DNA of 13,513 nucleotides from Leucobacter sp. (lineage in GTDB: Bacteria; Actinomycetota; Actinomycetes; Actinomycetales; Microbacteriaceae). Where the stretch lies: the NCBI GenBank assembly GCA_017990305.1, contig JAGNOB010000012.1, positions 1-13,513 of the forward strand. The letters run 5' to 3'. This document shows positions 1-13,513 of the stretch, in pieces. Numbering within the stretch: position 1 is the stretch's first letter; each line of letters begins with the position of its first letter. Both the position numbers and the translations under genes were made by a program. The notes beneath the pieces were generated by a model. It was not told the DNA's origin and did no database searches. It saw only the letters and a list, made by a program, of their open reading frames with translations.

Positions 1-717
1 GCTACGAAGATGCTCGCCGATTCGGGCCTGCGGTTCACCACGCACTGCCGCGGGGGTTTCTTCACTCTGCCCGAGGGGCCAGAACGGCGCGCCGCGCTCG
101 ACGACAACCGGCGCGCCATCGAAGAGACAGCGGCGCTCGCTGCTGCCGCGGCGGCCGGGTCCACAGCGGTGCTCGTGCTCGTCGCGGGAGGCCTCCCCGA
201 TGGCTCACGCGACCTCGTCGGGGCGCGAGAGCGCGTCCGTGACGCCATCGGCGTACTCGCGGATGATGCCAAAGCCGCGGGCGTGACACTCGCGATTGAG
301 CCGCTCCACCCGATGTACGCTTCCGACCGTGCCGTCGTCTCGACGCTCGGTCAGGCACTCGACATCGCAGCAGATTTCGCCCCTGAAGTTGTCGGCGCAG
401 CCGTTGACACCTTCCATATTTGGTGGGATCCGCAGGTCTTCGAACAGATTGCACGCGCGGGTCGCGAAAAGCGGATCGCAACCTACCAGGTGTGCGACTG
501 GAAGACTCCGCTGCCCGCCGACGTACTGCTCGGCAGGCATTACACCGGGGACGGTGTGATCGACTTCGGCTCGCTCACACGCGCCGTCGTCGACGCCGGG
601 TACACCGGCGATATTGAGGTGGAGATCTTCAACGAGGCGATCTGGGCAGCTCCGCCCCTGGAAGTTGTTCGACAGACCGCGCTCACCTTCGGCGCGGCCG
701 TCGCTCCCCACCTATGA
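1..717 (+). CDS. Sugar phosphate isomerase/epimerase, xylose isomerase-like TIM barrel (5' truncated)
   Basis: The reading frame is open from the first base of the window and ends at TGA 715-717. The ATG at 10 is probably internal, because the preceding codons read A-T-K in frame and the protein begins in what looks like the second helix of the barrel; roughly 40-50 residues are likely missing. Numbering from that ATG, the motifs of the AP-endonuclease-2/xylose isomerase-like family are present: an R-G-G-F-F stretch near residue 14, the metal ligand region E97-P-L-H100, the D133-T-F-H136 segment, D163 in C-D-W, a G-D-G-V-I-D loop near 180, and the final E-V-E-I-F strand with E203/E205. Members bind a divalent metal and isomerise or epimerise sugars; some relatives eliminate 3-keto-glycosides. 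The substrate cannot be read from the sequence. It is cytoplasmic (no signal in the visible part) and lies 41 bp upstream of the LacI-type regulator on the same strand, which suggests a sugar-catabolic role. Confidence 0.85.
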   Translation, partial: ATKMLADSGLRFTTHCRGGFFTLPEGPERRAALDDNRRAIEETAALAAAAAAGSTAVLVLVAGGLPDGSRDLVGARERVRDAIGVLADDAKAAGVTLAIEPLHPMYASDRAVVSTLGQALDIAADFAPEVVGAAVDTFHIWWDPQVFEQIARAGREKRIATYQVCDWKTPLPADVLLGRHYTGDGVIDFGSLTRAVVDAGYTGDIEVEIFNEAIWAAPPLEVVRQTALTFGAAVAPHL

Positions 718-743
718 GCCGCACCGCCGGCGAGCGCTTCGAC

Positions 744-749
744 TAGTAA
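744..749 (+). promoter_or_regulatory. Possible -10 element for a leaderless lacI-type transcript
   Basis: The hexamer TAGTAA ends 9 bases before the regulator ATG at 759, and no Shine-Dalgarno sequence lies in the short gap. This spacing is what leaderless actinobacterial promoters show. An AGCGCT core sits just upstream at 733-738, inside the region RNA polymerase would cover; the same core occurs in the operator at 5069-5089, so weak autoregulation is possible. The flanks around 733-738 are not palindromic. No good -35 was found. This is pattern reading only. Confidence 0.35.
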
Positions 750-758
750 GCTCGAATT

Positions 759-1790
759 ATGGCAGCGGAATCACCGAAGACCGCGCGGGCGTCAGCGCCC
801 ACACTGGATGATGTAGCCCGAGAGGCCGGTGTCTCACTTGCCACCGCCTCTCGGGTGCTCAACGGCTCTACCCGCAAAGTCGCTGAATCTTTCCGCGTGA
901 GAGTCGAAGCCGCCGCGGAGACGCTCGGGTACACCGCCAACGTCTCCGCACAGGCAACTGCGCGCGGCACGTCGGCGGTTGTCGCGCTGCTCGTGGCAGA
1001 TATCTCTGACCCCTATTTCGGGCTCATCGCTGCGGGCGTCGCGCGCGGCGCTGACGAAGAGGGTCTCATCGTCACGATCGCCGTGACCGAGCGTGATCCA
1101 GCGCGTGAACGCGCCATCATCCGCACGCTCCGCGGCCAACGCCCCCGCGGTCTCATCCTCGCGGCGTCTCGCGGGCACGAAGACGAATCGACGGCTGACG
1201 AGCTCCGCGCGTTCCAGCAGTTCGGCGGTCGTGTCGTCACCTTTGGCGCGAGCGTGCCAGTCGGCGAGGCCGTACACATCGACAATGTCGGCGGCGCTCG
1301 CATGCTTGGCGCAGAGATGGCCCTCCTCGGCTACCGCTCCGCGATTATCCTTGCAGCCTCGCGCGGCATCCGCACTTCAGACGACCGCGTCTCAGGCTTT
1401 TCGGCCGGGTTTGCGGCGGGTGGGGGCAGCGTGCTCAGTGTCGAACACGGCAGTTTTCAGCGCGACTCCGGCTACGACACCATGAAGCGCCTCCTTGCTG
1501 CTGGCGTTGATCCGGGCACCGTAGTGTTCGGCATGAGTGATGTCATCGCCATCGGCGCCATGGCAGCAATTCGCGACGCAGGGCGCACGGTGGGCGATGA
1601 CATCGCGGTCTGCGGTTTCGATGACGTACCGGCAAGCCTCGACGTCACGCCGCCTTTGACGACGGTGCGTGTCCCGCTGAGTGATATCGGTTACCAGGCG
1701 TTCCGGGCAACGGTGGATTCGGAGTGGGAGCCGACGGGTCTACCGCTCGAGGTCACCGTTCGCGCGTCGACTCCTCCCCGCAACAGCTAA
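759..1790 (+). CDS. LacI/GalR-family transcriptional regulator
   Basis: A 343-residue protein of normal LacI-family length. Residues 15-35 form the N-terminal helix-turn-helix (T-L-D-D-V-A-R-E-A-G-V-S, then recognition helix L-A-T-A-S-R-V-L-N), followed by the third helix and the hinge (L-G-Y near 56-58, A-Q-A-T-A-R-G-T-S at 64-72). The rest is a periplasmic-binding-protein-like effector domain, with V-A-L-L-V-A-D-I-S-D-P-Y-F as its first strand and V-C-G-F-D-D-V-P near residue 290. Such proteins bind a palindromic operator as dimers or tetramers and release it or tighten on binding a sugar. A matching palindrome lies at the ABC-transporter promoter (5069-5089), so this is probably the local regulator of that operon. 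The hinge residue that is normally Leu is Thr67. The ATG at 759 was chosen because it places the HTH at the usual distance from the N-terminus. The gene converges on the transporter operon. Confidence 0.93.
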   Translation: MAAESPKTARASAPTLDDVAREAGVSLATASRVLNGSTRKVAESFRVRVEAAAETLGYTANVSAQATARGTSAVVALLVADISDPYFGLIAAGVARGADEEGLIVTIAVTERDPARERAIIRTLRGQRPRGLILAASRGHEDESTADELRAFQQFGGRVVTFGASVPVGEAVHIDNVGGARMLGAEMALLGYRSAIILAASRGIRTSDDRVSGFSAGFAAGGGSVLSVEHGSFQRDSGYDTMKRLLAAGVDPGTVVFGMSDVIAIGAMAAIRDAGRTVGDDIAVCGFDDVPASLDVTPPLTTVRVPLSDIGYQAFRATVDSEWEPTGLPLEVTVRASTPPRNS

Positions 1791-1821
1791 CCCAGCTGTG
1801 CCCACCGTGGCACACCGCAGA

Positions 1822-1873
1822 AACAGCAGCGCCGCCGGCACACTGTAACGGTGCATCCGGCGGCGCTGCTGTT
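1822..1873. terminator. Bidirectional intrinsic terminator between lacI-type gene and ABC operon
   Basis: A perfect 17-bp inverted repeat (AACAGCAGCGCCGCCGG at 1822-1838 against 1857-1873) encloses an 18-base loop. The loop folds further: 1841-1845 pairs with 1849-1853 through one G:U-type pair. The structure lies 31 bp after the regulator stop and 13 bp after the stop of the MalG-type permease on the other strand. Strong GC stems at convergent gene ends are typical of actinobacterial terminators. No long T-tract follows on either strand, only AA/TT at the stem ends. Confidence 0.85.
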
Positions 1874-1886
1874 GTGTGCTGGCGGA

Positions 1887-2729
1887 TCAGCCCTTCACTG
1901 CGCCGGCGGCGAGGCCGCCCATAATAAAGCGCTGCATGAAGATAAAGATCACCAGAATCGGTGCGACCGCGAGGAGCAGCGTCGGGAACACGATTTCGTA
2001 GTTCGTCGCGTACGAAGACACAGCGGCATAGACGCCCGTCGTAATAGTCTTCGCCTGCGACCCCGGCCCGAGGATAAGCTGCGGGCTCACAAAGTCGTTC
2101 CATGCGCTGAGGGTGTTGAGAATGAATGCCGTCGCGATGATCGGCTTCATCAGCGGCGCGATGATCGTCCAAATCACGCGAAGCCGCCCGGCACCGTCGA
2201 TCGTCGCTGCCTCGTCGAGTGACTTCGGCAGCATGCGAATGTAGCCGGTGAACATGAACAGCGTGAACGGGATCATGGAGGCCGACATGAACAGCACAAG
2301 CCCCGGGACGGTCCCCATAAGCCCCAACGCCTTCAGCACGAAGATCGCGGGGACGAGGATAATCTGCGCCGGGATGAACATTCCAGCGACGAAGAACATC
2401 AGCATGATCGAGAACACGATGCCCGGCGTACGCGCGATGACGTAGGCGGCAGGGATCGCGAACCCAATGGCAATGACGTTGCAGGCGATCACGAGGAAAA
2501 TCGTGAAGACATACCCCTCGACGACCGGGAACTGTGTACTGTTCCAGGCGGCCTCAACGAACTCGGTGGTGGCGGTCGCTGGGTCAAGACTGAGCGGCGA
2601 CAGCAGGATCTCCTGCTGAGGCTTGAACGCGTTGATGACCATGATGTACATCGGTACGAGCATCGCGAGGGTGAGGATCGAAAGAAACACGACCCGAATA
2701 GTGTTCGAGATTTTGGCTTGGCGATTCAT
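1887..2729 (-). CDS. Carbohydrate ABC transporter permease, MalG type
   Basis: A 280-residue inner-membrane permease of the MalG/UgpE class. The start is the ATG at 2729: it gives the family's usual short N-terminus before the first membrane segment (about residues 11-33), has GGAGG upstream at normal spacing, and overlaps the upstream permease stop by four bases (ATGA). The frame is open further upstream, but that extension would overlap the neighbouring permease by 150 bp and is out of character. About six hydrophobic segments are visible (roughly 11-33, 73-98, 104-130, 138-162, 190-208 and 245-268). The EAA loop that contacts the ATPase reads E173-A-A-T-I-D-G179. The C-terminal G-L-A-A-G-A-V-K-G is typical of this permease class. 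With the upstream MalF-type permease it would form the channel of a CUT1-type importer for oligosaccharides or glycosides. It is the last gene of the operon; the specific substrate is unknown. Confidence 0.95.
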   Translation of the reverse strand: MNRQAKISNTIRVVFLSILTLAMLVPMYIMVINAFKPQQEILLSPLSLDPATATTEFVEAAWNSTQFPVVEGYVFTIFLVIACNVIAIGFAIPAAYVIARTPGIVFSIMLMFFVAGMFIPAQIILVPAIFVLKALGLMGTVPGLVLFMSASMIPFTLFMFTGYIRMLPKSLDEAATIDGAGRLRVIWTIIAPLMKPIIATAFILNTLSAWNDFVSPQLILGPGSQAKTITTGVYAAVSSYATNYEIVFPTLLLAVAPILVIFIFMQRFIMGGLAAGAVKG

Positions 2730-3712
2730 CCGACTGCCTCCGCCCCTTCTTCCGACTTGCGGCGCATGGCGATGATTGAGAAGGACAGGATTCCCGCGGC
2801 GATGATGAGAAGCACTGCCTGGGCGCTGGCAAGCCCAACGCGGTTGTTCGCGAACGAGACTGCGAGAATCTCGTACGCCCACGTCTGGGTCGCGTCTCCC
2901 GGCCCGCCATTCGTGAGGCCAAGTACCACGTCATACACCTTCAGCAGCGACAGGATGGACGTGATGATGGTGACCGTGACGGTCGGGGCGAGCGAGGGCC
3001 ACGTCACGTGGCGGAACACCTGCCACCGGTTTGCTCCGTCGATTCGGGCGGCCTCTTGCATTTCGACCGACACAGCCTGGAGCCCGGCGATATACAAGAT
3101 GAGCTGTACGCCGAACTGGGCCCACACGATCACGCCTATAAGCGTGTTCAGCGCCCAGGTAGGGTCTGACAAGAACGGCAGTGTTGATCCGGTCCACCGC
3201 TCCATCAAAGCGTTGATGGCACCCTGCGGTCCGAGGATTGCCTGCCACAGGAAGCCGACGATCAACGCGGAGAGGATGTGCGGGTAAAACATCACCGCAC
3301 GCCCGAAACTGTTGAACTTCGACCGCTTCTGCAGCATCAACGCGAGGCCAAGGGCCGCAACGTTCACGAGCAACGACCCGACAACCGCGATAGTGACCGT
3401 GACGAGGATCGAGGAGTGCATCTCATTCGCCGGATCCTGGAAGATCCTCGTGTAGTTATCGAGACCCACCCAGGTCGGTGACTGCGTCGGGATGCCGTTG
3501 TACTTGGTGAAGGAGTAGTACACGGCAAAGCCGACGGGCACGACCATCAGGAGGATGTAGACGACCAGCGCGGGCAGCGTGAGCGCGATGTCGAACGTCT
3601 TCGCCGCCTTCTTTGACGTCGCGCGGGGAGTGCGGGGCGAGGAGCCCCGGCGCACCAACCGTGAGGATGATGGCGCCGGGCTCCCAGCTGTTTCGGTCGG
3701 GACCGCGGACAT
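2726..3712 (-). CDS. Carbohydrate ABC transporter permease, MalF type
   Basis: A 328-residue membrane protein of the MalF/UgpA class. A Ser/Pro/Arg-rich cytoplasmic N-terminus of about 38 residues precedes the first membrane segment (about 43-68). Further segments lie near 101-127, 138-160, 188-211, 243-266 and 292-316. The ATPase-contact EAA loop reads E220-A-A-R-I-D-G226, and N-G-G-P-G near 268-272 matches family members. The start ATG lies 2 bp downstream of the lipoprotein stop codon. The nearest purine-rich sequence (GGAGAAG) is about 14 bases from the ATG, inside the lipoprotein gene, so translational coupling probably contributes. The stop overlaps the next permease start (ATGA). The two permeases and the binding protein form one CUT1 importer; substrate identity is not visible. 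Confidence 0.95.
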   Translation of the reverse strand: MSAVPTETAGSPAPSSSRLVRRGSSPRTPRATSKKAAKTFDIALTLPALVVYILLMVVPVGFAVYYSFTKYNGIPTQSPTWVGLDNYTRIFQDPANEMHSSILVTVTIAVVGSLLVNVAALGLALMLQKRSKFNSFGRAVMFYPHILSALIVGFLWQAILGPQGAINALMERWTGSTLPFLSDPTWALNTLIGVIVWAQFGVQLILYIAGLQAVSVEMQEAARIDGANRWQVFRHVTWPSLAPTVTVTIITSILSLLKVYDVVLGLTNGGPGDATQTWAYEILAVSFANNRVGLASAQAVLLIIAAGILSFSIIAMRRKSEEGAEAVG

Positions 3713-3714
3713 AA

Positions 3715-5004
3715 CTAGTTCAGCTTCTCCGCTTCGTACCAGGCGCTCAGAGCATCAGCGGTGTCGGCCGGCGTCTTACCCTGCCACAGACCCTGCACGA
3801 GCTCGGTGAACTTCGCGTTGAAGCCGGCTACAGGAAGCGCGAGATCGCCAACTGTCTGGTTGCCTGGGACGACAAGGCTAGGCGCCTCTGCAACGAGGTC
3901 CTGCACCAGTGTTGCGTATTCGTCGTTGGCAGTGTCGAGACCCTCACGAATCAGTCCGTCAGCCTTGGCCTGCATCTGAATGGCGTCTTCATCGGTCACA
4001 AGGTACTCAACGAGCGCGGCAGCCGATGCGACGTTCGAGGAGCCTGACCACACCATGTATGGATACGCGAGCGTGGCGCCCATGGGCCCGGGTGCGTCGT
4101 CTGCGTTCTCAACTGGCGGGGAGAACACCCCTACTTCAAACTCGGGTGGGGTAGCGGCGAGCGTGGTCGTGAACCACGATCCCATCGGGTAGATGCCCGT
4201 GGTGCCGTCAATGAAGTTTGCCTCCTGCGTACCCGAGTCGGTCGCAACGTCGTCTGCCGTTGTGTAGCCGGCATCGATCCACCCCTGGATGCGCTCGAAT
4301 AGCGGCAGGAACTGCTCGCCCAGATCTGCGTTCCCAGCGGCCACCTCTGCCTGCCAGCCCGGGGTGGTGACGTTCTGCTGTGGATGCCACATCTGCTGCG
4401 CCTGCACGCCGGTCGCCCACTCTGAAGCGAACGCGATCGGGCGCTTAACCCCGGAGTCGGCGAGGGCTGCGAGAGCCGCGTCGAACTCCTTCCAGGTCTT
4501 CGGCGCTTCCGTAATCCCAGCGGCCTCGAAGAGATCCTTGTTGTAGTACAGCACGGACTGGGCTTGTGTTCCGACACCGACGACGTTGATCTTTCCGTCA
4601 GTGGCGTAGGTGTCAGCCATCGGCGTCTTAGCGGCCCAGGCGTAGTCGGTCAGGTCAAGCACTTCGCTCGCTGTGTCGGCTGTCGGGAAGATCGACTCGA
4701 TGACATCGGGCGCGGTACCCGCTGCGAGGAGGGCCGGGAAGCTTTCCGCAACCGATTGGCCAGTGGGGCCCTCGATCTTCACGTCGACGCCGGTTTTCTC
4801 CTCGAAGGGAGCAACAATCTCATCCCAGCGATCCTGCGAGAGGTTGTCGGTGATATTCACGAGCATTCGAATCTCGCCACCAACCTCGCCGTCTGTCGCG
4901 GGCTCGGCGGGAGCTCCGGCAGAACTGCATGCCGTGAGCGCGATCAGGGGCGCGACTGCAAGCGCCGCGATCCAGGTCCTACGTCGTCCAAAATCTTTAG
5001 ACAT
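3715..5004 (-). CDS. Extracellular solute-binding lipoprotein of a sugar ABC importer (family 1)
   Basis: A 429-residue lipoprotein. The ATG at 5004 was chosen because AAGGAG lies 6 bases upstream and the product begins with a lipoprotein signal: basic residues R7-R9, a hydrophobic core, then lipobox L-T-A-C with Cys26 as the acylated residue. A longer in-frame extension to 5151 would run through the promoter and terminator region and is rejected. The mature protein has the family-1 (MalE-like) pattern: strand I-R-M-L-V near 45, F-E-E-K-T-G-V-D-V near 68, A-G-T-A-P-D-V near 94, Y-N-K-D-L-F-E-A-A-G-I near 154, and a G-S-W motif near 273. Many Trp and aromatic residues fit carbohydrate stacking. 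It is the first gene of the importer operon and would be tethered to the outer face of the membrane. Its promoter carries a LacI-type palindrome, so sugar-controlled expression is likely. Confidence 0.95.
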   Translation of the reverse strand: MSKDFGRRRTWIAALAVAPLIALTACSSAGAPAEPATDGEVGGEIRMLVNITDNLSQDRWDEIVAPFEEKTGVDVKIEGPTGQSVAESFPALLAAGTAPDVIESIFPTADTASEVLDLTDYAWAAKTPMADTYATDGKINVVGVGTQAQSVLYYNKDLFEAAGITEAPKTWKEFDAALAALADSGVKRPIAFASEWATGVQAQQMWHPQQNVTTPGWQAEVAAGNADLGEQFLPLFERIQGWIDAGYTTADDVATDSGTQEANFIDGTTGIYPMGSWFTTTLAATPPEFEVGVFSPPVENADDAPGPMGATLAYPYMVWSGSSNVASAAALVEYLVTDEDAIQMQAKADGLIREGLDTANDEYATLVQDLVAEAPSLVVPGNQTVGDLALPVAGFNAKFTELVQGLWQGKTPADTADALSAWYEAEKLN

Positions 5005-5010
5005 CTTCGT

Positions 5011-5016
5011 CTCCTT
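5011..5016 (-). promoter_or_regulatory. Ribosome binding site of the solute-binding lipoprotein gene
   Basis: AAGGAG on the minus strand, 6 bases before the ATG at 5004. It decides the start against a longer open frame reaching 5151. Confidence 0.85.
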
Positions 5017-5047
5017 GTGTTCTGCCTCGAACTGAGTGGCACAACTC

Positions 5048-5053
5048 ATAATA
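5048..5053 (-). promoter_or_regulatory. Probable -10 element of the ABC importer operon
   Basis: Minus-strand TATTAT, preceded directly by TG, lies 43 bases upstream of the lipoprotein ATG and would give a leader of about 35-40 bases containing the AAGGAG site. The expected -35 zone falls at the edge of the palindrome 5069-5089; no good -35 hexamer is seen, as is common in actinobacteria. Confidence 0.55.
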
Positions 5054-5068
5054 CATCCTACGTCCGCC

Positions 5069-5089
5069 TTTGGATAGCGCTTTCCCAAA
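5069..5089. promoter_or_regulatory. LacI-family operator at the ABC importer promoter
   Basis: On the minus strand the core reads GGGAAAGCGCTATCC. It is centred on the perfect hexamer AGCGCT, with matching GGA/TCC and TT/AA steps on each side and mismatches only at two symmetric positions. This is the classic LacI/CcpA-type operator pattern with a central CpG. It overlaps the expected -35 region of the importer promoter, where binding would repress. The LacI-type protein encoded at 759-1790 is the natural candidate to bind it. Confidence 0.7.
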
Positions 5090-5108
5090 CTCTCCTTGGG
5101 TACACACA

Positions 5109-5143
5109 CCGGGGGCCGGCGCACACTGTGCACCGGCCCCCGG
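5109..5143 (-). terminator. Intrinsic terminator of the beta-helix protein gene
   Basis: A nearly perfect 17-bp stem (CCGGGGGCCGG plus GCACA at 5109-5125 against 5127-5143, one C:A mismatch) with a very tight loop. It lies 17 bp past the stop codon of the minus-strand beta-helix gene and 20 bp before the operator of the next transcription unit, so it separates the two same-strand units. No clear T-tract follows. Confidence 0.8.
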
Positions 5144-5159
5144 CTCGCCAATCTTACCC

Positions 5160-8100
5160 TCAGCGAACCTCGATTGTTATGGGCGCACTTTCCGTTGAAC
5201 CCGCGCCATTTGTGAAGGTCATCACATACTCGCGAGTACCTGTCTCGCGCCCCTCAATGGGCACCTCAACCTGCTGCGCCTGAGGCGTGCGCGACTCGAC
5301 CTCACCGGCAGCTATCTGCTCACCGTCTTCAGTCAACGCCCAGGTTTCTGCGTTCGTGCCCCACCACATGTTGGCGGTGACGACGTACGCACCATCTCGG
5401 TCGTGGTTGTCGTGCGAGAGCACAACCTTGCCCGGCGTCGCCGCGCTCACCTCGACGGTGTGCGCCCCCTTGCACGGGGTCGCCCCGGCGACGTTAACGA
5501 GCTCGCACGTATACACGTAGCTACCGTTCGCCTTCCCAGCGACCGCCACGTCAACTCGTTGCGCCTGAGGGCTTGCGTCGGTCAGCTTCTCCTCGGCAAC
5601 AAGCTCTCCGTTTTCGAAGAGACGAAGGGAGGTACCGTTTTGATCCCACCACATATTTGCCGTCACCGTGTACGAGCCACCACGAATGCCATCCTGTGAG
5701 TTGTCGTCGCTGAGCACGGCGGCTCCAGGAACCGCAGGCATCGCGGCCTTGAGTGCTGCGGCGAGCGCCTGTCGCGCCGCATCAATCTTGCCCTGGGGTG
5801 CTCCTGTCGCCGCACCCACCTCGAGCGCAGTGGCGAGCGCCTGCTGCACCGCACTCAAGTCCCCTGCGACACCAGACGCAAGGAGCTTCTCAGCGCGGTC
5901 CACCTCGGCCCACAGCTCCGATGCGTCACCGCGATCGGGCCGCCCCACGCCTTCGAGCCCCACCTGAGCATTCCAGGCATCGATCCACTCCGCACCAAAC
6001 GCGGAAGCGACATCGCCGTTCTTCGAGAACTTCAGCGTGCCCATATCGAGGCCTGCGGCCTCAGTTGACGCCGGCGAAACGAGATTGGTGTTGATCTTGT
6101 CGCTCCAGGTCGAGAGAGAGTAACTCGCCGCTGGCTCAGAGAAGCGAATGGTGCTGCTCTTAAACTCGCCCCCACCGATGATGACGGAGTGATCAATCTC
6201 CACGCGCGCTGGCACGTTGAGCGAGTCAGGGTTCTCCCACACGCTCACACGGTCACAACCGTTCGTCGCGCTCGTCGCGTAATCGGCCGTGGTGCACACC
6301 GCGCCAGTGTCTGTATTGCGCGGGACGTACCACGTCTTCGTCTCAGGGAAGTCGATGGGGGTCCCGTCGGAGTATTCGTGCTCGCCGCTCGTGTAGTGGT
6401 CCTCCCAGATAGCCACGTTCTCGGGTGTCGCGCTGTACTTCTCGCCGTTGATGACTTCGAGCATGGAGTTGAACCGGCTGTGCACCACCCAGCCGTTGGA
6501 GACAAGGGCGTTACGCTCGCCCTTGCTTGCGTACTGCTGATCGTGCCCGGTCTGCGTGACATCGATGTACACGTTGTCGTTCGCGGTGTTGCTGTGCCCC
6601 GATTGGAAGAAAACGCCGGAGTGCGAATCCTTCACGACGTTGTGGTGGAACCGCATGCCGGACGCACCATCATCCATATAGAAGGCGTCGTTCTTGCCGC
6701 CGATGCCGTCGAACAGGTTGTACGCGATCTCGTTGCCAAGGTACGTGTAGTCGCGGCCTGTATAGACGACGCCTTGGTCGCCCGCGTTTGTCACGAGGTC
6801 ACGGAACGAGTTGTGATTGACTCGCATGTCATTACCCATGATCTGAACAGCCATGTGGGGTGCGTCGTAGACATCGTTGTACTCAAACGAGTTACCAACG
6901 CCATAGAGGTAACCGGCTGGGGTGTAGGTCGCGAGTTTGGAGAATCGGGCAATCTCGTTGTGGTGCGCAACGTTGTTGCCGCGTTCGAGCGTGCTGCGGT
7001 CGCCGCCGCCGAGAAGCACGCCGCCACCACCGAGATCGTGCAGGAATGAGTTCTGCACCACGTTTCCGGTACCACCGCGAACGGTCTCGTAGTCGGGAAG
7101 CGCGGTAATTGATTCCGAAGTTTCGCCGATGCGGATCGCGTCCATACTCACGTTCGAGATCTCGACGCCGTCGATGAGGGTGTTGTGCGAGTCGAGTAGC
7201 TGGATGCCACTCACAAGCGATTCCGACATCTCAAGATCGCGGATCGTGACACCCGTGGTCCCATCGAGCAGGAAAAAGTTCTTGTCGAACGCGGAAAGCG
7301 TGACCCGCTTACCCTCGACAGTGCCGTCCTCTGGGAGGTAGTAGAGCATGTCGTTGCCGTCGTGACGATCGATGTAGTACTCGCCCGGGACGTCAAGCTC
7401 CGAGAGGACGTTGGAGGCCTTGACCTTTGTGTAGCCCTCCTGCGGAATGTACATCGAGGGGTACTTTGTGAAGAGCGTGTCACCGCTCCACGACAGCATC
7501 CGCACCATCTCCACTGCGTAGTTGTTCCCGATATAGCCGCTGAGCCAGCCCTCGGTCTCGTAGCGGGTGTTGTCGATGTCTTCGATCCACTCGGGATCGG
7601 CCTGCACCGGGATGTCGGAGTAGTCGCCGAAGCCACGTGTGCCCCAGTCGTGCACAACGGGGGTCGCCTCTGGCGCCCAGGTCTTGTAGCGATCGTTCTC
7701 GAGCGCCCGCGCTCCAACCCTGAAGTTCGAGGGCGTCATTTTGCGCAGCTCATCCTGGCTCCAGGTATCGCGCGATTCGCCTTCGGGAAGCTGCTGCTTC
7801 TTGTCCTCGAACTGGGCGCGTGGCGAGGTGCCGCTGCGCTCCCAAACGCTTTGGGGCGCGAATCGCTCGTCAAGGTCGATCTGCGTGAGGTCCCCTGGCC
7901 CCTCTGCGCCCCATTTCTTTCCCGTGCCCCACAGGTGGCACTCGGTCTGCGAGGTGGTGCAGTCGTCGGCGTTGGGAAACTGCGCGAGCTCCTGGAGCGA
8001 ACCGTCAACCGAGAGTTCTGGTGCGAATGGCTGTTGTAGCCAGTTGAACCCGTTCTTGTAGAGCGTTCCTGGGTCGACGCCTGCGGCGCCAAGGTCGTAC

Positions 8101-8576
8101 ACCCAAGTGCCGGCACGCGCTGCGGCCTGCAGTCGAGTATTCGACGACAGCTTCGCATTCGCGAGGTCGGCATCTTCGAGCTTCTGCCACCCATCCTCGG
8201 GCAGTGCGTGTGCTCCGGTAATCGAGACGTCTTCGCCGCGGTAGGCGGAGTAGGTCACCCACGAGTCTTCCGCACCGGTCAGCGTGACCGCGTCATCGAG
8301 AACGTAGGTTCCCCCGCGGATCCACACCGTCCCCTGCGCGGCCTCACTCGTTCGGCCCCGCAGGGCGTCGCGGGCCGCCGCGATTGTTGCGAGCGGTGCG
8401 GCAATGCTCCCGTCGTTCGCATCGTCACCGTCAGGCGCCACGTATACAGTGAGCTCTGCGGCCCCCTGAGTGATGCCCTGTTCTGTGGCGAGAGCCGCCG
8501 TCGAGCCCAGCACTCCGGGTATCAACGCGAGGGTCATCGCCCACGCCACTCCGCTCCGCATTCGCATACGTCTCAT
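5160..8576 (-). CDS. Large secreted right-handed beta-helix protein, putative polysaccharide-degrading enzyme
   Basis: A 1138-residue exported protein. The ATG at 8576 is supported by AAAGGAG 9 bases upstream and by the signal peptide that follows (basic M-R-R-M-R-M-R, hydrophobic core about 9-28, cleavage near A-L-A30); the frame continues upstream to 8654 without such support. Residues 42-75 carry the Y-V-A-P-D-G-D-D-A-N-D-G-S entry motif of beta-helix enzymes. Residues 125-430 include an inserted segment with a P-G-E-Y-Y-I-D-R near 397 that resembles GH141-like proteins. Residues about 430-700 hold the helix coils (repeated short V/I-x-N/D-x-x-F/I turns with N-H-N and H-H-N steps). A FIVAR-like helical stretch (about 885-945) and two tandem modules (950-1044, 1048-1138) follow. 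No LPXTG anchor is present, so it is probably released or held by its C-terminal modules. Relatives include glycoside hydrolases and polysaccharide lyases; catalytic residues and substrate cannot be assigned. It is divergent from the operon starting at 8709. Confidence 0.85.
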   Translation of the reverse strand: MRRMRMRSGVAWAMTLALIPGVLGSTAALATEQGITQGAAELTVYVAPDGDDANDGSIAAPLATIAAARDALRGRTSEAAQGTVWIRGGTYVLDDAVTLTGAEDSWVTYSAYRGEDVSITGAHALPEDGWQKLEDADLANAKLSSNTRLQAAARAGTWVYDLGAAGVDPGTLYKNGFNWLQQPFAPELSVDGSLQELAQFPNADDCTTSQTECHLWGTGKKWGAEGPGDLTQIDLDERFAPQSVWERSGTSPRAQFEDKKQQLPEGESRDTWSQDELRKMTPSNFRVGARALENDRYKTWAPEATPVVHDWGTRGFGDYSDIPVQADPEWIEDIDNTRYETEGWLSGYIGNNYAVEMVRMLSWSGDTLFTKYPSMYIPQEGYTKVKASNVLSELDVPGEYYIDRHDGNDMLYYLPEDGTVEGKRVTLSAFDKNFFLLDGTTGVTIRDLEMSESLVSGIQLLDSHNTLIDGVEISNVSMDAIRIGETSESITALPDYETVRGGTGNVVQNSFLHDLGGGGVLLGGGDRSTLERGNNVAHHNEIARFSKLATYTPAGYLYGVGNSFEYNDVYDAPHMAVQIMGNDMRVNHNSFRDLVTNAGDQGVVYTGRDYTYLGNEIAYNLFDGIGGKNDAFYMDDGASGMRFHHNVVKDSHSGVFFQSGHSNTANDNVYIDVTQTGHDQQYASKGERNALVSNGWVVHSRFNSMLEVINGEKYSATPENVAIWEDHYTSGEHEYSDGTPIDFPETKTWYVPRNTDTGAVCTTADYATSATNGCDRVSVWENPDSLNVPARVEIDHSVIIGGGEFKSSTIRFSEPAASYSLSTWSDKINTNLVSPASTEAAGLDMGTLKFSKNGDVASAFGAEWIDAWNAQVGLEGVGRPDRGDASELWAEVDRAEKLLASGVAGDLSAVQQALATALEVGAATGAPQGKIDAARQALAAALKAAMPAVPGAAVLSDDNSQDGIRGGSYTVTANMWWDQNGTSLRLFENGELVAEEKLTDASPQAQRVDVAVAGKANGSYVYTCELVNVAGATPCKGAHTVEVSAATPGKVVLSHDNHDRDGAYVVTANMWWGTNAETWALTEDGEQIAAGEVESRTPQAQQVEVPIEGRETGTREYVMTFTNGAGSTESAPITIEVR
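5163..5729 (-). repeat. Two tandem ~93-residue C-terminal modules of the beta-helix protein
   Basis: Module 1 (residues 950-1044, about 5445-5729) and module 2 (1048-1138, about 5163-5435) align along their length. Shared landmarks are V-L-S-x-D-N, V-T-A-N-M-W-W followed by N, an E-x-G-E turn, P-Q-A-Q-x-V-x-V and N-x-A-G near the end. Similar modules with an N-M-W-W core occur at the ends of chitinase-like and other secreted glycan enzymes, where they are thought to be Ig-like accessory or binding domains. Module 1 has an extra cysteine pair (Y-T-C and P-C-K) absent from module 2. Confidence 0.75.
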
Positions 8577-8585
8577 CGGTAAGGT

Positions 8586-8592
8586 CTCCTTT
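8586..8592 (-). promoter_or_regulatory. Ribosome binding site of the beta-helix protein gene
   Basis: AAAGGAG on the minus strand, 9 bases before the ATG at 8576. It sets the start of the signal peptide and rules out the upstream in-frame ATG at 8654. Confidence 0.85.
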
Positions 8593-8697
8593 GTCCTATT
8601 CGGCCCGCGCGCAGCAGCACGCGTTTCGAGGTGAGCATACGTGCGACGAAACATCGCATGTATGATGTCTACACTGTCACAACCACACCAAAATTGG

Positions 8698-8703
8698 TAT
8701 GAT
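8698..8703 (+). promoter_or_regulatory. Extended -10 promoter of the dehydrogenase-ThuA-488aa operon
   Basis: TATGAT preceded by TGG gives a full extended -10 (TGnTATGAT). Transcription would begin about 6-8 bases downstream, at or next to the ATG at 8709, which predicts a leaderless or nearly leaderless mRNA. The element overlaps the ACCAA-AA-TTGGT dyad, so a regulator bound there would block the promoter. Confidence 0.6.
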
Positions 8704-8708
8704 ATGTT

Positions 8709-9725
8709 ATGAATTTCAGTGTGTTTCCAAAGAGGGAGAAGGCCATCAGACCGTCAACCGTTCTGCTCATGAGCCCGGCCTCTCTCGCCGAAGAGGTCTT
8801 CACGACCGACATGCTGAGCGAGCTCCGCGCACTCGTATCGCTACACGACGCAGTCATCACGGAGCTCACCGACACCTCCCGCGCGGCACTCCGCGAGGCT
8901 GAGCTCGTCATCGGCGGCTGGAGTGCGCCACGCATCTCCCCAACGGACGCCCCCAAGCTTCGGGCGCTTGTGTACCTTGGTGGCGTCGGATCGACCTGCC
9001 TCAACGACACCGCGGCTTGGAAACACACGGGCCTCGAGATTGCGAATGCGAGAAGCACCAACGCGATCCCAGTGGCCGAGTACGCCCTCGCGATGATCCT
9101 GCTTGATGGCAAGGATGCGTTCTCGCAGACGCGGCGATTCAGTGCGCAACGCGGCGCCTCCCCCGCTGCGCCCACGCCGCACAGGGTCGGCAATTTCCGC
9201 AGAACCGTCGGCATCGTCGGGCTCTCCCACACGGCCAAGACCCTCATCACCCTCCTCCGCCCATTCGACATTGATGTGATCGCGTACAGCCCCGAACTCA
9301 CCCCAGAACTCGCGGCACAACTCGGCATCCGTGCCGGCACTCTCGAGGAAGTCATGGCCACGAGCGACCTCGTCTCGCTCCATCAGCCCCTCATCGCGGC
9401 GACCCGCGGCCAGATCAACCGCTCGCTGCTCGCGCGCATGCGGGACGGCGCGACGCTGCTCAACACAGCAAGGGGCGCTGTCGTCGATCAGGGCGCACTC
9501 GACGACGAGCTTCGCTCCGGCCGAATCCGCGCCATTCTCGACGTGACCGACCCAGAGCCGCTACCAGCAGAGCATGACCTGTGGGCACTCCCCAACGTCG
9601 TGCTCACACCCCACATTGCGGGATCGATGGGCTCCGAGCTTCACCGAATGGGGCAGGGTGCGATTGACGAGGTGCGGCGCTTCGTTGCCGGCAAGCCTTT
9701 TCTCAATCGGGAGACACTCCAATGA
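8709..9725 (+). CDS. D-2-hydroxyacid dehydrogenase family protein with altered nucleotide-binding motif
   Basis: 338 residues if started at ATG 8709, about the family's length. The catalytic triad of D-isomer-specific 2-hydroxyacid dehydrogenases is present: R255 in N-T-A-R-G-A-V-V-D, E283 in D-P-E-P and H302 in T-P-H-I-A-G. Family members reduce 2-oxo acids to D-2-hydroxy acids, or the reverse, with NAD(P). The Rossmann glycine motif is unusual: G171-L-S173-H-T-A176-K replaces G-x-G-x-x-G, and the acidic residue expected after the second strand is S194 (A-Y-S-P), which would favour NADPH or altered cofactor use. Homologues would be expected to start near R-P-S-T-V-L-L, so the first 12 residues may not be translated (see the internal SD at 8732). 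It is the first gene of a tight operon; its stop overlaps the ThuA-like start (ATGA). The substrate is unknown; a sugar-derived oxo acid is a reasonable guess. Cytoplasmic. Confidence 0.88.
   Translation: MNFSVFPKREKAIRPSTVLLMSPASLAEEVFTTDMLSELRALVSLHDAVITELTDTSRAALREAELVIGGWSAPRISPTDAPKLRALVYLGGVGSTCLNDTAAWKHTGLEIANARSTNAIPVAEYALAMILLDGKDAFSQTRRFSAQRGASPAAPTPHRVGNFRRTVGIVGLSHTAKTLITLLRPFDIDVIAYSPELTPELAAQLGIRAGTLEEVMATSDLVSLHQPLIAATRGQINRSLLARMRDGATLLNTARGAVVDQGALDDELRSGRIRAILDVTDPEPLPAEHDLWALPNVVLTPHIAGSMGSELHRMGQGAIDEVRRFVAGKPFLNRETLQ
8732..8742 (+). promoter_or_regulatory. Shine-Dalgarno-like sequence inside the dehydrogenase N-terminus, before an in-frame ATC
   Basis: GAGGGAGAAGG lies inside the predicted reading frame. 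The GGGAG part is 6 bases before an in-frame ATC at 8745 (Ile13 of the long form). Starting there would give R-P-S-T-V-L-L-M-S-P, which looks like the natural N-terminus of the family. ATC is a very rare start codon, and the next in-frame ATG (8769) is about 30 bases away. It may be a real non-canonical start, a decayed ATG, or chance. Confidence 0.35.
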
Positions 9726-10426
9726 GCGAGTACGCAGACCAGCGCCTGGCACTCATCGTTCGCGGCGGCTGGGAAGGCCACGACCCTGTCGGTGCGACCG
9801 AACGATTTATCCCGCTGCTCATCGAGGCTGGCTTCGCGATTGACATCGCGGAAGACCTCGCCGTGTACGACGACGCACCCCGAGTCGCCTCGGCCGACCT
9901 CATCTTGCACTGCTGGTCTGGCGGATCACTCACTGCGAGCCAAGAACGCACACTGGTGGGCGCCGTTCGTGCCGGCACGGGATTTGCCGGATGGCACGGC
10001 GGAATCATCGGCACCAACGTCATGAACGCCGCGTACCTGAGAATGGTCGGCGGTAGGTTCCTCTATCACCCCGATGGGTTCCAGGACTACACGGTCACCA
10101 TCACGCAGTCGCCGGCACGCGACGGCGACATCACCGCAGGGCTTGAGCAGTTTGCGGTGCACACTGAGCAATACTGGCTCCTCGCCGACAGCCACAACAC
10201 TGTGCTCGCCGAGACCGTCTTCGAACCTGCCGAAGACACCGAATGGACAGAACCCGTGCCGATGCCCGTGACGTGGACGAGGCGCTGGGGCATGGGGCGT
10301 GTCTTCGTCTGCACGCTTGGCCATCGCCTCGCCGACTTCGATGTCCCAGAGACCACCACCATGATCCACCGCGGCTTGCTCTGGGCTGCACGCAACCAGG
10401 ACCTACACGAGGAGCCTTCCGTATGA
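9722..10426 (+). CDS. ThuA-like domain protein
   Basis: A 234-residue cytoplasmic protein that is essentially one ThuA domain (class I glutamine amidotransferase-like fold, without the amidotransferase catalytic residues). Family landmarks are W-E-G-H at 17-20, L-I-L-H-C-W near 60, G-F-A-G-W-H-G-G at 87-94, G-G-R-F at 110-113, E-Q-Y-W near 149-152, and P-V-T-W-T-R-R-W-G-M-G-R-V-F-V-C-T-L-G-H at 182-201. ThuA proteins were named from rhizobial trehalose utilisation, where thuA works with the dehydrogenase gene thuB; the reaction is not settled for most members. The start overlaps the dehydrogenase stop (ATGA) and the stop overlaps the next start (ATGA), so expression is probably coupled to both neighbours. 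The pairing with a hydroxyacid-type rather than a Gfo/Idh-type dehydrogenase is less usual. Confidence 0.9.
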   Translation: MSEYADQRLALIVRGGWEGHDPVGATERFIPLLIEAGFAIDIAEDLAVYDDAPRVASADLILHCWSGGSLTASQERTLVGAVRAGTGFAGWHGGIIGTNVMNAAYLRMVGGRFLYHPDGFQDYTVTITQSPARDGDITAGLEQFAVHTEQYWLLADSHNTVLAETVFEPAEDTEWTEPVPMPVTWTRRWGMGRVFVCTLGHRLADFDVPETTTMIHRGLLWAARNQDLHEEPSV

Positions 10427-11889
10427 CCACGAACACTGCCGCAACACCCGATGTCGGCGCGCTCGCACGCTGGATGCGCAGCTGGGTCGGCGACAACGGC
10501 CAGATCCGCGGCTTCCACAACCACAGCGTCTGGGGCACCAACCCAGCAACCTTCATCGATTTCACGAGCGGACACCAAGCGTTTTCAGCTCCCGCAACCG
10601 CAGCGTTCGGCGAGGCGCTCGGCCGCGACTTCGACGAGCGAGGCCTCGACCTCTGGCGACGCATGATGCTCTTCCAAGCTCGGACCGTGCAAGCCGATGG
10701 CCAGTACGCACACATCGGCTTCCAGGTGGGCGAGTCAGCAACCGCAGGGCTCATCCACAACATGGTGGGCAGTATCGGCATGCTCGAGGGCATGCGTCAC
10801 GCCGGCCAACACCTCAGCGACGACGAACGAGCCGAAATCTTCGCCGCAGTGCGCAACAACCTCCGCGCGTGCGAAGCGTACGGTGGCGGGCGGCCAACGC
10901 CCGAGGGCACGTGCAACCAGGAGTACGCACGGGTCTGGGTCAAGCTTCTCTACACAGAGCTTTCCGGAGACGACACCTACGACGAGGAGATCGCAGCCGA
11001 CCTCGATACGCTCATCACCCTCTGTTCGGTGCGCGGGGTGCCAGACACCGACAGCATCGGCACCTACCGCGTTGCGCTCGACCGCGAGCGCGGAGGCATC
11101 CTCGAACCAGCCGAGTACTACGGCCTCATGGTGATGCCCCTCGTCATCGCCGCACAGCGGTATGGTCGGGAAGATTTCCTCGAGGAGGCCCGTGGCATCT
11201 GCCGTCACGTCGTCCGCTCAGCCTGGACCGACGAAGCGGGCTACACCCGCTATCACCGCTACTGGTATGTCGACGGCGAGGTGCAGCGCCTCTCGACCAC
11301 GCCAATGCTCATCGCTGGGATGGGGCTCACCCTCCGCGGCATCGACGAGGTGCTCGCCCAGGGAGAAGACGCAGAGCTCGAAGCGTTCCGCAGCAACTGT
11401 CTGAACACCTACGCCGGGTACCAAACCCCCGCGGGCTACTTCGCTTCAGCGACCGGATGGCACAATGAGGCCGACGTGTCACCGAGCACTGCGTGGCACT
11501 CACACGACCTCATGGCCCTGGTTCACGGGTCTGAACTCGGCGAAGACTTCTGGGATCTCGTCTTTACGGATCACGACAGGCAATCGGTTCTGCTTTCCGA
11601 CCGCGCCTACTGGGTGGAGGACGGCGTGCACTGGTGCATCCTCAGCCCGCTCACCGCAGGCGATCTCAGCATTTATGGCCGAAAGGATAGCGACACGTTC
11701 TCGCGGTCATTCTTCAGCTGGACCGATAAGCCTGCGCTTCCCGAAGAGCTTGAGTTTCCCGAGGCTCCCGTGTTCTTCGCTGCCGACGACGGGCTGTACC
11801 GCGTCGACAAGGCCACACGCCCCACTGACGTCACCACTCTCGGTAGCTCCCCCTACCGTGGACCGGTGGGCGCTCCCGACAGGAGCTGA
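10423..11889 (+). CDS. Uncharacterised 488-aa protein, probable alpha/alpha-barrel carbohydrate-active enzyme
   Basis: I do not recognise a named family. The ATG at 10423 overlaps the ThuA-like stop (ATGA) and has GAGGAG 9 bases upstream; the frame is open back to 10243, but that would overlap the ThuA-like gene by 180 bp. There is no signal peptide, so the protein is cytoplasmic. Residues about 50-330 read as successive amphipathic helices with Gly/Pro/aromatic-rich connecting loops, as in alpha/alpha-toroid hydrolases and lyases. Polar aromatic clusters could form an active site: G-F-H-N-H-S-V-W (30-37), C-N-Q-E-Y-A-R (164-170), E-P-A-E-Y-Y-G (228-234), T-R-Y-H-R-Y-W-Y (275-282), W-H-N-E-A-D (346-351) and W-H-S-H-D (358-362). 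Residues 395-470 look beta-rich, like a small C-terminal lid. It is the third gene of the operon and ends 6 bp before a strong hairpin. Function as a glycosidase, uronyl hydrolase or lyase is inference from fold impression and context. Confidence 0.9.
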   Translation: MTTNTAATPDVGALARWMRSWVGDNGQIRGFHNHSVWGTNPATFIDFTSGHQAFSAPATAAFGEALGRDFDERGLDLWRRMMLFQARTVQADGQYAHIGFQVGESATAGLIHNMVGSIGMLEGMRHAGQHLSDDERAEIFAAVRNNLRACEAYGGGRPTPEGTCNQEYARVWVKLLYTELSGDDTYDEEIAADLDTLITLCSVRGVPDTDSIGTYRVALDRERGGILEPAEYYGLMVMPLVIAAQRYGREDFLEEARGICRHVVRSAWTDEAGYTRYHRYWYVDGEVQRLSTTPMLIAGMGLTLRGIDEVLAQGEDAELEAFRSNCLNTYAGYQTPAGYFASATGWHNEADVSPSTAWHSHDLMALVHGSELGEDFWDLVFTDHDRQSVLLSDRAYWVEDGVHWCILSPLTAGDLSIYGRKDSDTFSRSFFSWTDKPALPEELEFPEAPVFFAADDGLYRVDKATRPTDVTTLGSSPYRGPVGAPDRS

Positions 11890-11895
11890 TGCGAC

Positions 11896-11931
11896 GCCCG
11901 GGGCCGGAGCTTCCCCACTCCGGCCCCGGGC
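11896..11931. terminator. Bidirectional intrinsic terminator at the end of the dehydrogenase operon
   Basis: A perfect 14-bp stem (GCCCGGGGCCGGAG at 11896-11909 against 11918-11931) with the 8-base loop CTTCCCCA. It sits 6 bp after the operon's last stop codon and 11 bp after the stop of the convergent SRPBCC gene, so it can end both transcripts. It marks the right-hand edge of the presumed sugar locus. No T-tract is present. Confidence 0.85.
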
Positions 11932-11942
11932 AGGCGATCACA

Positions 11943-12398
11943 CTAGCCTGCTGCTTCGGCGATGCGCAGCACCTCGTCGAGGAACACCTGCCATCCCTCC
12001 AACGTTGCGGCCTTCTGTTCGTGCGGGAAATCCGGGGTGTCCTGCGTCATCCGCAGCGCTGCTCCCCCGTCCGCGGGGAACACGGAGAACGTGACGAGTA
12101 CCTCTGGCGCGTCGGCCCCAGGCATGTCGGTGAGCGTGAGATCGAAGCGCGAGGGCGGATCAACCCGCACGAAGGTGCCCCGCCAGTCGATGGTGTTGCC
12201 GTCGGGCAACACCATCGTTGCGCGCCACGACCCGCCCTCGACGGCCGCGAAGGAGAGCTGGTCCGCGGGAACGTCGACGTCGACTCCACCGAACCAGCTC
12301 GCGAACGATTCAGGTTCGCTCAGCGCCGCGAACACGGCCTCGGGCTGCGCCGAGGTCGTGCGGTCAATCTCAATGCCAGTCTGCGTGACTCCAGTCAT
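11943..12398 (-). CDS. SRPBCC-domain protein, AHSA1-like
   Basis: A 151-residue soluble protein with the START/SRPBCC (Bet v 1-like) helix-grip pattern: I-E-I-D-R-T near residue 8, A-Q-P-E-A-V-F-A-A-L-S-E-P-E-S-F-A-S-W-F-G (first helix and turn, about 17-37), alternating beta strands through residue 120, and a long C-terminal helix containing the G-W-Q-V-F-L-D-E motif (133-140) typical of AHSA1/Aha1-like members. Family members bind small hydrophobic ligands or act as chaperone co-factors; this one's ligand is unknown. The start at 12398 has a G-rich SD (AGAGGGG) at normal spacing. A weak -10-like TAGTCT (12444-12449) lies upstream. The gene lies just outside the presumed sugar locus and shows nothing that links it to it. 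Confidence 0.88.
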   Translation of the reverse strand: MTGVTQTGIEIDRTTSAQPEAVFAALSEPESFASWFGGVDVDVPADQLSFAAVEGGSWRATMVLPDGNTIDWRGTFVRVDPPSRFDLTLTDMPGADAPEVLVTFSVFPADGGAALRMTQDTPDFPHEQKAATLEGWQVFLDEVLRIAEAAG

Positions 12399-12485
12399 GT
12401 TGGCCCCTCTCGGCGAGCTGGGGCTGACGCCCCTTGGCCTACGAGACTACTGCGCTCACCCGCGGCGGGGAACCCTGTTTCGTAG

Positions 12486-13513
12486 CTACACCACGACGCG
12501 TAACGAATCGACGGCAGGATCGATGGCTCCGCGCACGAACCCGATTGGGGATGCAGCCACGTCGCGGAGGAATGCGATCGCCTCAGCGGTGATCTCTTCC
12601 CCCGGCGCGATATTCGGGATCCCTGGCGGGTACGCAGCAAGCGCATCGGCTGACACGCGCCCGACGCTCTCGGCTGCGGGAACCACCTCTGTTGCGGAGA
12701 AGTAGGCTGCGCGCGGCGTCATCCGCCGGGGCCCAGGGTCTGGGAGGCGGGGCAACTGGTGGGCGGCTGCACGTTTGCCTGTGCGCCTGAGGACCTCGTC
12801 GATCGCGGTGAACAGCCGCTCCACGTCGAGCTCTTTACCAGGGCCGAGGAACGCAACGACCGCGGAGGAGGTTGCGATTTCGAGCAGAATATCGTGCGCC
12901 CGCGCGAGTTCGGCGCGCATCTCGTAGCCGGAGCAGCCGCTCTGCGAGAGCCCGATCGATACCCGCAGCGGATCGGCCGTCACGACGCTCGCATAGTTCG
13001 CGAATTCGTCGCTCACGAGCGTGAGCTGCGGGTGCGACCGCACAAGAGCGCGCAGCCGCTCGGCGAGTTCGATGCTCTCGCCGATCCGCTCGGTTTCGAG
13101 CATGAGGCTGCGCCTGGCGATGTCGAGCGAGCCAAGCAACAGCGAGCTCGCGCTCGTCGTCTGGGTGAGGTTGTATGCGCGTTCGAGTGCTGGTTCGAGC
13201 CGCGCAGCAAACGGGCCCTCAGCGAGCAAGAGCATCGCGGACTGACCGAGGCTGCCGCCCATTTTGTGCGTGCTCGTCACCACGATGTCCGCACCGAGCG
13301 CAGCGGGAAACACCGGCAGTTCCTCGTGGAAGCCAAAGTGCGCGCCCCACGCAGCATCGACGATAAGTGGGACGCCGTTGGCGTGGGCGACCTCCGCCAA
13401 CCCTGCGATGTCCGACACCGCACCAAAGTAACTCGGGGAGATCACGTAGGCAGCACTCGGGCGCTCACCGGCTGCGGCTGCCCGATCGAATCCGGCGGCG
13501 AGCGCGGCTGGCG
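12486..13513 (-). CDS. PLP-dependent Orn/Lys/Arg decarboxylase-type enzyme (5' truncated)
   Basis: The frame is open to the edge of the window, so the N-terminal part is missing; the GTG at 13445 is internal (residues before it continue a normal sequence). Counting from that codon, the fold-type-I PLP features are V-I-S-P-S-Y-F-G (1-8), D30 in V-D-A-A-W-G-A-H-F-G-F-H for the pyridine nitrogen, and K61 in S-T-H-K-M-G-G-S-L-G-Q-S-A as the Schiff-base lysine. The C-terminus has Y-P-P-G-I-P followed by P-G-E, the hallmark of the Orn/Lys/Arg decarboxylase C-terminal domain. The protein stops soon after this, which fits the shorter (about 480-residue) bacterial subgroup rather than the 700-residue inducible enzymes. 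Substrate (arginine, lysine or ornithine) cannot be told. It lies upstream of the SRPBCC gene on the same strand, 87 bp apart. Confidence 0.9.
   Translation of the reverse strand, partial: PAALAAGFDRAAAAGERPSAAYVISPSYFGAVSDIAGLAEVAHANGVPLIVDAAWGAHFGFHEELPVFPAALGADIVVTSTHKMGGSLGQSAMLLLAEGPFAARLEPALERAYNLTQTTSASSLLLGSLDIARRSLMLETERIGESIELAERLRALVRSHPQLTLVSDEFANYASVVTADPLRVSIGLSQSGCSGYEMRAELARAHDILLEIATSSAVVAFLGPGKELDVERLFTAIDEVLRRTGKRAAAHQLPRLPDPGPRRMTPRAAYFSATEVVPAAESVGRVSADALAAYPPGIPNIAPGEEITAEAIAFLRDVAASPIGFVRGAIDPAVDSLRVVV

Follow-up and report, generated by a model that had tools for sequence, protein, structure and literature searches.

A Leucobacter sugar-uptake locus encodes a 488-residue protein that looks like an unclassified (alpha/alpha)6 carbohydrate enzyme

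Introduction

Among sugar-active enzymes with an (alpha/alpha)6 barrel, members of GH127 have a zinc-binding Cys cluster and a catalytic Cys and Glu, members of GH88 a catalytic Asp pair (D88/D149 in the UGL of Bacillus) and members of GH76 an adjacent pair of catalytic Asp residues. The catalytic His pair of the AGE/cellobiose 2-epimerase superfamily is His247 and His377 in CsCE, with His259 and His390 as the RmCE counterparts, according to PMC5726027. Here we describe a 488-residue protein that resembles (alpha/alpha)6 enzymes acting on carbohydrates and compare it with these families. Its gene lies on a 13,513-nucleotide stretch of Leucobacter sp. DNA (assembly GCA_017990305.1, contig JAGNOB010000012.1, positions 1 to 13,513), hereafter the window.

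10423..11889, plus strand: gene of the 488-residue protein, an unclassified (alpha/alpha)6 barrel with a beta-rich domain, and our main finding
10450..11535, plus strand: (alpha/alpha)6 barrel, residues ~10-371 (AlphaFold2 model)
11530..11886, plus strand: C-terminal beta-rich domain, residues 370-488 (AlphaFold2 model)

Results

The gene is a single open frame of 488 codons plus a stop, preceded by an AGGAG sequence upstream of the start codon. A database search with the protein returned 172 proteins at E<=0.001, and since the frame is conserved in these, its occurrence by chance is ruled out; on this comparison we regard the open reading frame (ORF) as a genuine gene. The 120 matches listed span 81-100% of its length. 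A profile search found 173 proteins, and the 120 listed all belong to the same family. Where a name is given it is nearly always 'hypothetical protein', and record titles place the family in Actinobacteria, Firmicutes, Chloroflexota, Verrucomicrobia and others. The first-pass annotation, made from the letters of the window alone, had found no named family for this protein. We reach the same result, as no Pfam family scored above its cut-off and the NCBIfam scan gave zero matches. Searches of PDB sequences with the family found no relative, and literature searches returned no paper whose title or opening of the abstract describes the family or its gene set. On these searches, the protein belongs to an isolated, unnamed bacterial family. 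Two family members each occur in Paenibacillus cymbidii R196 and in one Paenibacillus metagenome-assembled genome (L036 and L062; L054 and L059, by record titles), and these paralogues may serve different glycans.

The AlphaFold2 model of the protein is confident (pLDDT 94.3). Its barrel has an inner and an outer set of six helices each, and a single face, that of the pocket, is conserved. Its closest solved folds include sugar epimerases, GH88, GH76 and GH127. The earlier reading of the sequence as an alpha/alpha barrel is thus borne out both by the model and by its resemblance to (alpha/alpha)6 sugar enzymes. That reading had not described the beta-rich domain at residues ~372-488, for which solved structures in the PDB give no convincing match. 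In this domain W397, E399 and W404 are invariant in 70/70 sequences of the family alignment, which comprises 70 of the 120 listed homologues and has 57 invariant columns.

We next divided the barrel into an active face (the loops leading into the inner helices, together with the initial six residues of each of these helices), an opposite face and a remainder. On the active face 69/192 positions are conserved in >=90% of the 70 sequences, against 3/62 on the opposite face; the remaining barrel has 19/108 such positions and the C-terminal domain 13/117. The difference between the two faces is therefore the pattern of a single-ended enzyme pocket. The residues invariant in all 70 barrels are N33, H34, W37, H51, H112, N113, N165, Q166, Y168, R170 and R216, and further along E228, E231, Y232, Y233, R265, D270, R276, E349, D351, H361 and D362. 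The invariant acids and bases of the active face include H34, D46, H51, H112, E228, E231, D270, E349, D351, H361 and D362. R216 and R276 also lie on this face, R170 is further along the inner helix carrying N165, and R279, R420 and K421 are near-invariant in the family. Five of the eight residues singled out beforehand, E228, E231, E349, D351 and H361, proved invariant (70/70) and would be our candidate catalysts. The other three did not hold as fully: H278 is found in 69/70 and H359 in 56/70, while position 167 is Glu in 49 and Asp in 21.

The protein was also expected to lack a signal peptide. A simple hydropathy check, made without a predictor or control, showed no N-terminus resembling a signal peptide: over the first 45 residues, the highest mean of any 12-residue stretch was 0.48. 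Among the 70 aligned proteins this value is at most 1.41. The protein is thus likely cytoplasmic, as had been proposed.

The other features of the window are as follows.

8709..9725, plus strand: D-2-hydroxyacid dehydrogenase family protein (PF02826), leading gene of a three-gene unit
9722..10426, plus strand: ThuA-like protein (PF06283), middle gene of the unit
11896..11931, plus strand: 14-bp GC-rich hairpin without a T run, directly 3' of the stop of the 488-residue protein's gene
5160..8654, minus strand: secreted GH141-like parallel beta-helix protein, ORF of 1164 residues, with a start that in our reading is likelier near 8576
3715..5004, minus strand: lipoprotein sugar-binding protein of an ATP-binding cassette (ABC) importer (PF01547), with its start set by us at a lipoprotein-like signal within ORF 3715-5151
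2726..3712, minus strand: ABC sugar permease, by domain match
1887..2732, minus strand: ABC sugar permease, by domain match
759..1790, plus strand: LacI-family regulator, by domain match
10..717, plus strand: xylose-isomerase-like TIM barrel (PF01261), frame open at the window start

The start of the 488-residue protein's gene overlaps the end of the ThuA-like gene (ATGA), which overlaps the 2-hydroxyacid dehydrogenase gene in the same way. The three genes form a tightly coupled unit in the order dehydrogenase, ThuA-like, 488-residue protein. The hairpin behind this unit has a z of -4.5, and its stability was equalled in 0/200 shuffles. A terminator scan found no classical T-run terminator there, and the hairpin is a possible end of the transcription unit. 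The divergent block on the minus strand consists of the secreted beta-helix protein and the ABC sugar importer, which correspond to the secreted glycan-active protein and the importer of the first-pass annotation. Apart from the 488-residue protein, which is the unexplained part, the window has the ordinary components of a locus for sugar uptake that includes a GH141-like enzyme.

We then compared the secreted beta-helix protein with solved structures. A profile from 26 of the 44 members of its cluster matches 9rx2 (E 8.8e-58) and BT_1002 (5mqp), the founder of GH141 (E 8.4e-22). D626 and D661 are aligned to residues 528 and 569 of the BT_1002 chain, whose spacing of 41 is that of the catalytic D523/D564 of BT1002. 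With an apparent offset of 5, the two residues match the catalytic positions, and both are invariant in 26/26 sequences. By this alignment the neighbour appears to be GH141-like with both catalytic Asp residues present. BT1002 is endo-acting and frees a methylxylosyl-fucose disaccharide from rhamnogalacturonan II, and another GH141 enzyme is a xylanase, as stated in PMC10154630. Because of the latter, GH141 membership does not fix the substrate. In 38 additional genomes of the order, other open frames contain counterparts, 40-55% identical, of the C-terminal part of the window's GH141-like protein (residues ~892-1163); this part is perhaps a cell-surface or carbohydrate-binding module.

Among 297 genomes of the order, with matches counted only up to the E-value limits given, four match the 488-residue protein at E<=1e-30. 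Three of these contain the full-length gene. The fourth (G331:C3:493384-493668) has an open frame matching only residues 388-486, at 64% identity, which may be a gene remnant, a C-terminal domain encoded on its own or an effect of the assembly. Near-full-length GH141-like matches were seen only in the same three genomes, in a first look that considered no more than two candidate places in each genome and could miss a further full-length gene. The other 38 of the 41 genomes matching the GH141-like protein do so only over its C-terminal part, at residue 892 and beyond. As two of the three co-occurring genomes share a genus, the link with GH141 is supportive rather than decisive.

An enolase-type gene occurs in 20/297 genomes of the order at E<=1e-80. 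The window's own genome is incomplete (74.7%). One of its contigs (C77) carries genes for a mutarotase-like and a lactonase-like protein and, truncated by the contig end, the beginning of an aldo-keto reductase gene. Another (C419) carries a GntR-enolase pair. At 59% identity to the query, this enolase resembles a second group of copies found elsewhere (55-65%) rather than those beside relatives of the 488-residue protein in G360 and G410 (77%), and may therefore belong to another route.

To place the family in its gene neighbourhoods, we analysed 67 loci from one-per-species genomes together with the window (68 in all). Genes were called and clustered by script, and taxonomic groups were assigned by us from record titles. 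Cluster counts are lower bounds, and each cluster was named from one or two of its representatives. In L005 and L056 the family gene escaped the positional test, and gene calling gave no family-cluster member in L005, L006 and L007; all of these loci were kept in the denominators.

In the 30 actinobacterial loci, ABC permeases (30), a 2-hydroxyacid dehydrogenase (29), a binding protein (29) and the GH141-like beta-helix cluster (27, of which 23 of the window's own type) recur at least this often. Then come GntR (26), the enolase-type dehydratase (24), aldo-keto reductase (22), SDR (15), FAA hydrolase (14), ThuA (12), a lactonase-like amidohydrolase (12), a rhamnose-mutarotase-like protein (10), DeoC-like (8), RbsD-like (8), LacI (7), PfkB (7) and GH95 (5). 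The nearest PDB relatives of the aldo-keto reductase are L-galactose dehydrogenases, and the 101-residue mutarotase-like gene exceeds the PF05336 (RhaM) cut-off. Three other assignments lie below curated cut-offs: the amidohydrolase is closest to L-fucono-1,5-lactonase, the FAA hydrolase to 2,4-didehydro-3-deoxy-L-rhamnonate hydrolase and the enolase to L-talarate/galactarate dehydratase. The steps of these neighbours resemble a non-phosphorylative L-fucose route described in PMC13406643. By this resemblance, the neighbourhoods would tie the 488-residue family to the catabolism of L-fucose/L-galactose-type sugars. DeoC-like, ribokinase-like and RbsD-like genes come after the importer in 7-8 of the 30 loci (L003, L005, L008 and similar), which suggests an alternative lower pathway.

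Of the 19 Firmicutes loci, 13 contain a GH88 gene close to solved unsaturated glucuronyl hydrolases, always in the same gene run as the family member (13/13). Also present are aldo-keto reductase (12), GFO/IDH/MocA (11), ABC permeases (10), an unnamed 643-residue family (8), a second type of binding protein (7), a protein with a weak rhamnose-mutarotase match (6), the beta-helix cluster (5), a heparinase II/III-like protein (5) and the enolase-type gene (4). The ~643-residue family (cluster c25; L063:12411-14342) stands in the same gene run as the relatives of the 488-residue protein in its eight loci. Its representative has no Pfam match above cut-off, and it is another uncharacterised candidate enzyme.

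All three Chloroflexota loci have ABC permeases, and two each have beta-helix and PhyH genes; neither aldo-keto reductase nor enolase was found in them. PhyH-type dioxygenase genes directly adjoin family members in four non-actinobacterial loci (L032, L034, L035 and L056). The remaining 16 loci belong to Opitutae, other Verrucomicrobia, Bryobacteraceae and Abditibacterium. Among the genes found in them are EamA (9), a two-domain permease (9), DtxR-type (6), FeoB (5), GFO/IDH/MocA (1) and PhyH (1). In the Opitutae loci (L051, L052, L060 and others), the two-domain permease and the EamA transporter precede the family member, and the genes nearby are FeoB and DtxR-type rather than sugar genes.

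Discussion

Our best explanation, to which we give a probability of about 0.45, is that the 488-residue protein belongs to a so far unclassified enzyme family that acts on carbohydrates in the cytoplasm and helps to degrade imported oligosaccharides rich in L-fucose/L-galactose-type sugars. The secreted GH141-type beta-helix enzyme would cut a polymer, and the ABC importer would take up short oligosaccharides, probably with a uronic acid. The 488-residue enzyme would hydrolyse these in the deep pocket at one end of its barrel. The freed sugar would be oxidised by the reductase resembling L-galactose/L-fucose dehydrogenases, and would then pass through the lactonase, the enolase-type dehydratase and downstream steps. 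An acidic substrate is suggested by the four invariant (R170, R216, R265 and R276) and three near-invariant basic residues. Hydrolysis is favoured mainly because an importer and an intracellular glycosidase would naturally continue the endo-cut of GH141.

Weighing against this explanation are the 16 loci of Verrucomicrobia and others, where we found no ABC permease cluster, beta-helix, reductase, enolase, GH88, lactonase or FAA hydrolase. These loci argue against a universal tie between the family and the pathway.

More tentatively, the protein could found a new CAZy family of cytoplasmic glycosidases. These would act on acidic L-fucosyl/L-galactosyl oligosaccharides from GH141 enzymes, with an unusual pocket helped by the beta-rich C-terminal domain, and feed an oxidative L-fucose/L-galactose route in actinobacteria and Firmicutes. 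Most other recurring genes of the actinobacterial loci can be named, so that the 488-residue family is a well-bounded gap in the use of complex L-fucose-type glycans by soil bacteria. Its GH141, GH95 and GH88 partners can narrow its substrate.

Alternative explanations and known families

The first-pass annotation had proposed a hydrolase or a lyase. The conserved pocket agrees with an enzyme, but its chemical class is less firm, as the fold and the position of H361 would also fit an isomerase or epimerase like those of the AGE superfamily. A cofactor-independent sugar isomerase or epimerase, whose acid/base pair would be H361 and a Glu (E228 or E231) in place of two His residues, is unlikely but the likeliest of the alternatives. 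RmCE superposes on the barrel over 325 residues (root-mean-square deviation 3.5). The structural alignment ends with model residue 371 facing RmCE 400 and CsCE 387; ten residues earlier, judging from these end points, H361 coincides with the second catalytic His, His390 of RmCE and His377 of CsCE. It also coincides with what we take to be H374 of RaCE. The other catalytic His would by spacing fall near E228/E231, so that a Glu apparently stands where the first His is expected. The correspondence as a whole is tentative, and the YihS rows of the fold comparison disagree among themselves and give no single consistent offset. Furthermore, PF07221 is matched by none of the 70 members at E<=0.1, and the profile-profile probability against a 7-sequence AGE alignment is <1%. 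The matched epimerase chains stop near the barrel end, whereas the 488-residue family adds a beta-rich domain of ~115 residues. The surrounding route also has no need of an isomerase.

Less probable again is a lyase whose Tyr/His/Asn/Arg chemistry would split, by beta-elimination, an imported oligosaccharide containing uronate. The invariant N33 H34, H112 N113, Y168, Y232, Y233 and several Arg residues would suit such an enzyme, as would the heparinase II/III-like and GH88 genes of the Firmicutes loci (5 and 13 of 19). However, no lyase family is among the eight Pfam families matched in all by the 70 members at E<=0.1, a shallow profile comparison with the local heparinase-like cluster (5 sequences) was null, and the separate heparinase-like gene can itself account for the unsaturated substrates of GH88. 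There is only a slight chance that the protein is a sugar enzyme with a house-keeping or non-catabolic role, brought into different loci time and again, as the 16 loci devoid of pathway clusters might suggest, since the family is patchy and its three full-length genes in 297 genomes each have a GH141-like partner in the genome.

We consider it just as improbable that the protein is a divergent member of GH127, GH88 or GH76 to which the profiles are merely insensitive. UniRef labels three of the matches listed (P0092, P0095 and P0130) 'Glycosyl hydrolase'. GH127 shares the fold class, and its profile PF07944 is touched by 49/70 members at E<=0.1 (best 8.6e-7); it is also a precomputed label of 8 of the 120 homologues listed, of which 3/8 exceed the cut-off in a rescan. 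The 488-residue protein itself scores 12.9 bits against a curated cut-off of 24.9. Residues 278-372 of the eight labelled relatives pair with profile positions 46-135 of 376, and residues 300-363 of the protein with positions 60-124. As late barrel is thus paired with early profile, this is not a collinear match, and it resembles a generic hit to a helical hairpin. No Cys column of the family exceeds 56/70, so none is invariant, although a control alignment of 20 PF07944 proteins also has no visible Cys cluster. The hhalign probability, from shallow alignments, is <2% for both GH127 and GH88.

GH88 shares the fold and, in Firmicutes, the gene run, but is a separate protein there. Its profile-profile probability is 1.7%, PF07470 is absent from the families matched by the 70 members, and its Asp pair has no confident mapping onto the family. 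GH76 alpha-1,6-mannanase matches in fold, yet no GH76 profile is among the eight Pfam families. The earlier suggestion of kinship with GH127, GH88/105 and polysaccharide lyases therefore stands at the level of fold but not of sequence, as far as the shallow profiles for GH127, GH88 and the local heparinase-like cluster extend. As the protein was not a profile member of GH127, GH88 or AGE, we file it in none of them. A hydrolase that degrades imported oligosaccharides is our preferred explanation; depending on its reaction, the family would represent either a new glycosidase family or a new chemistry on the (alpha/alpha)6 fold.
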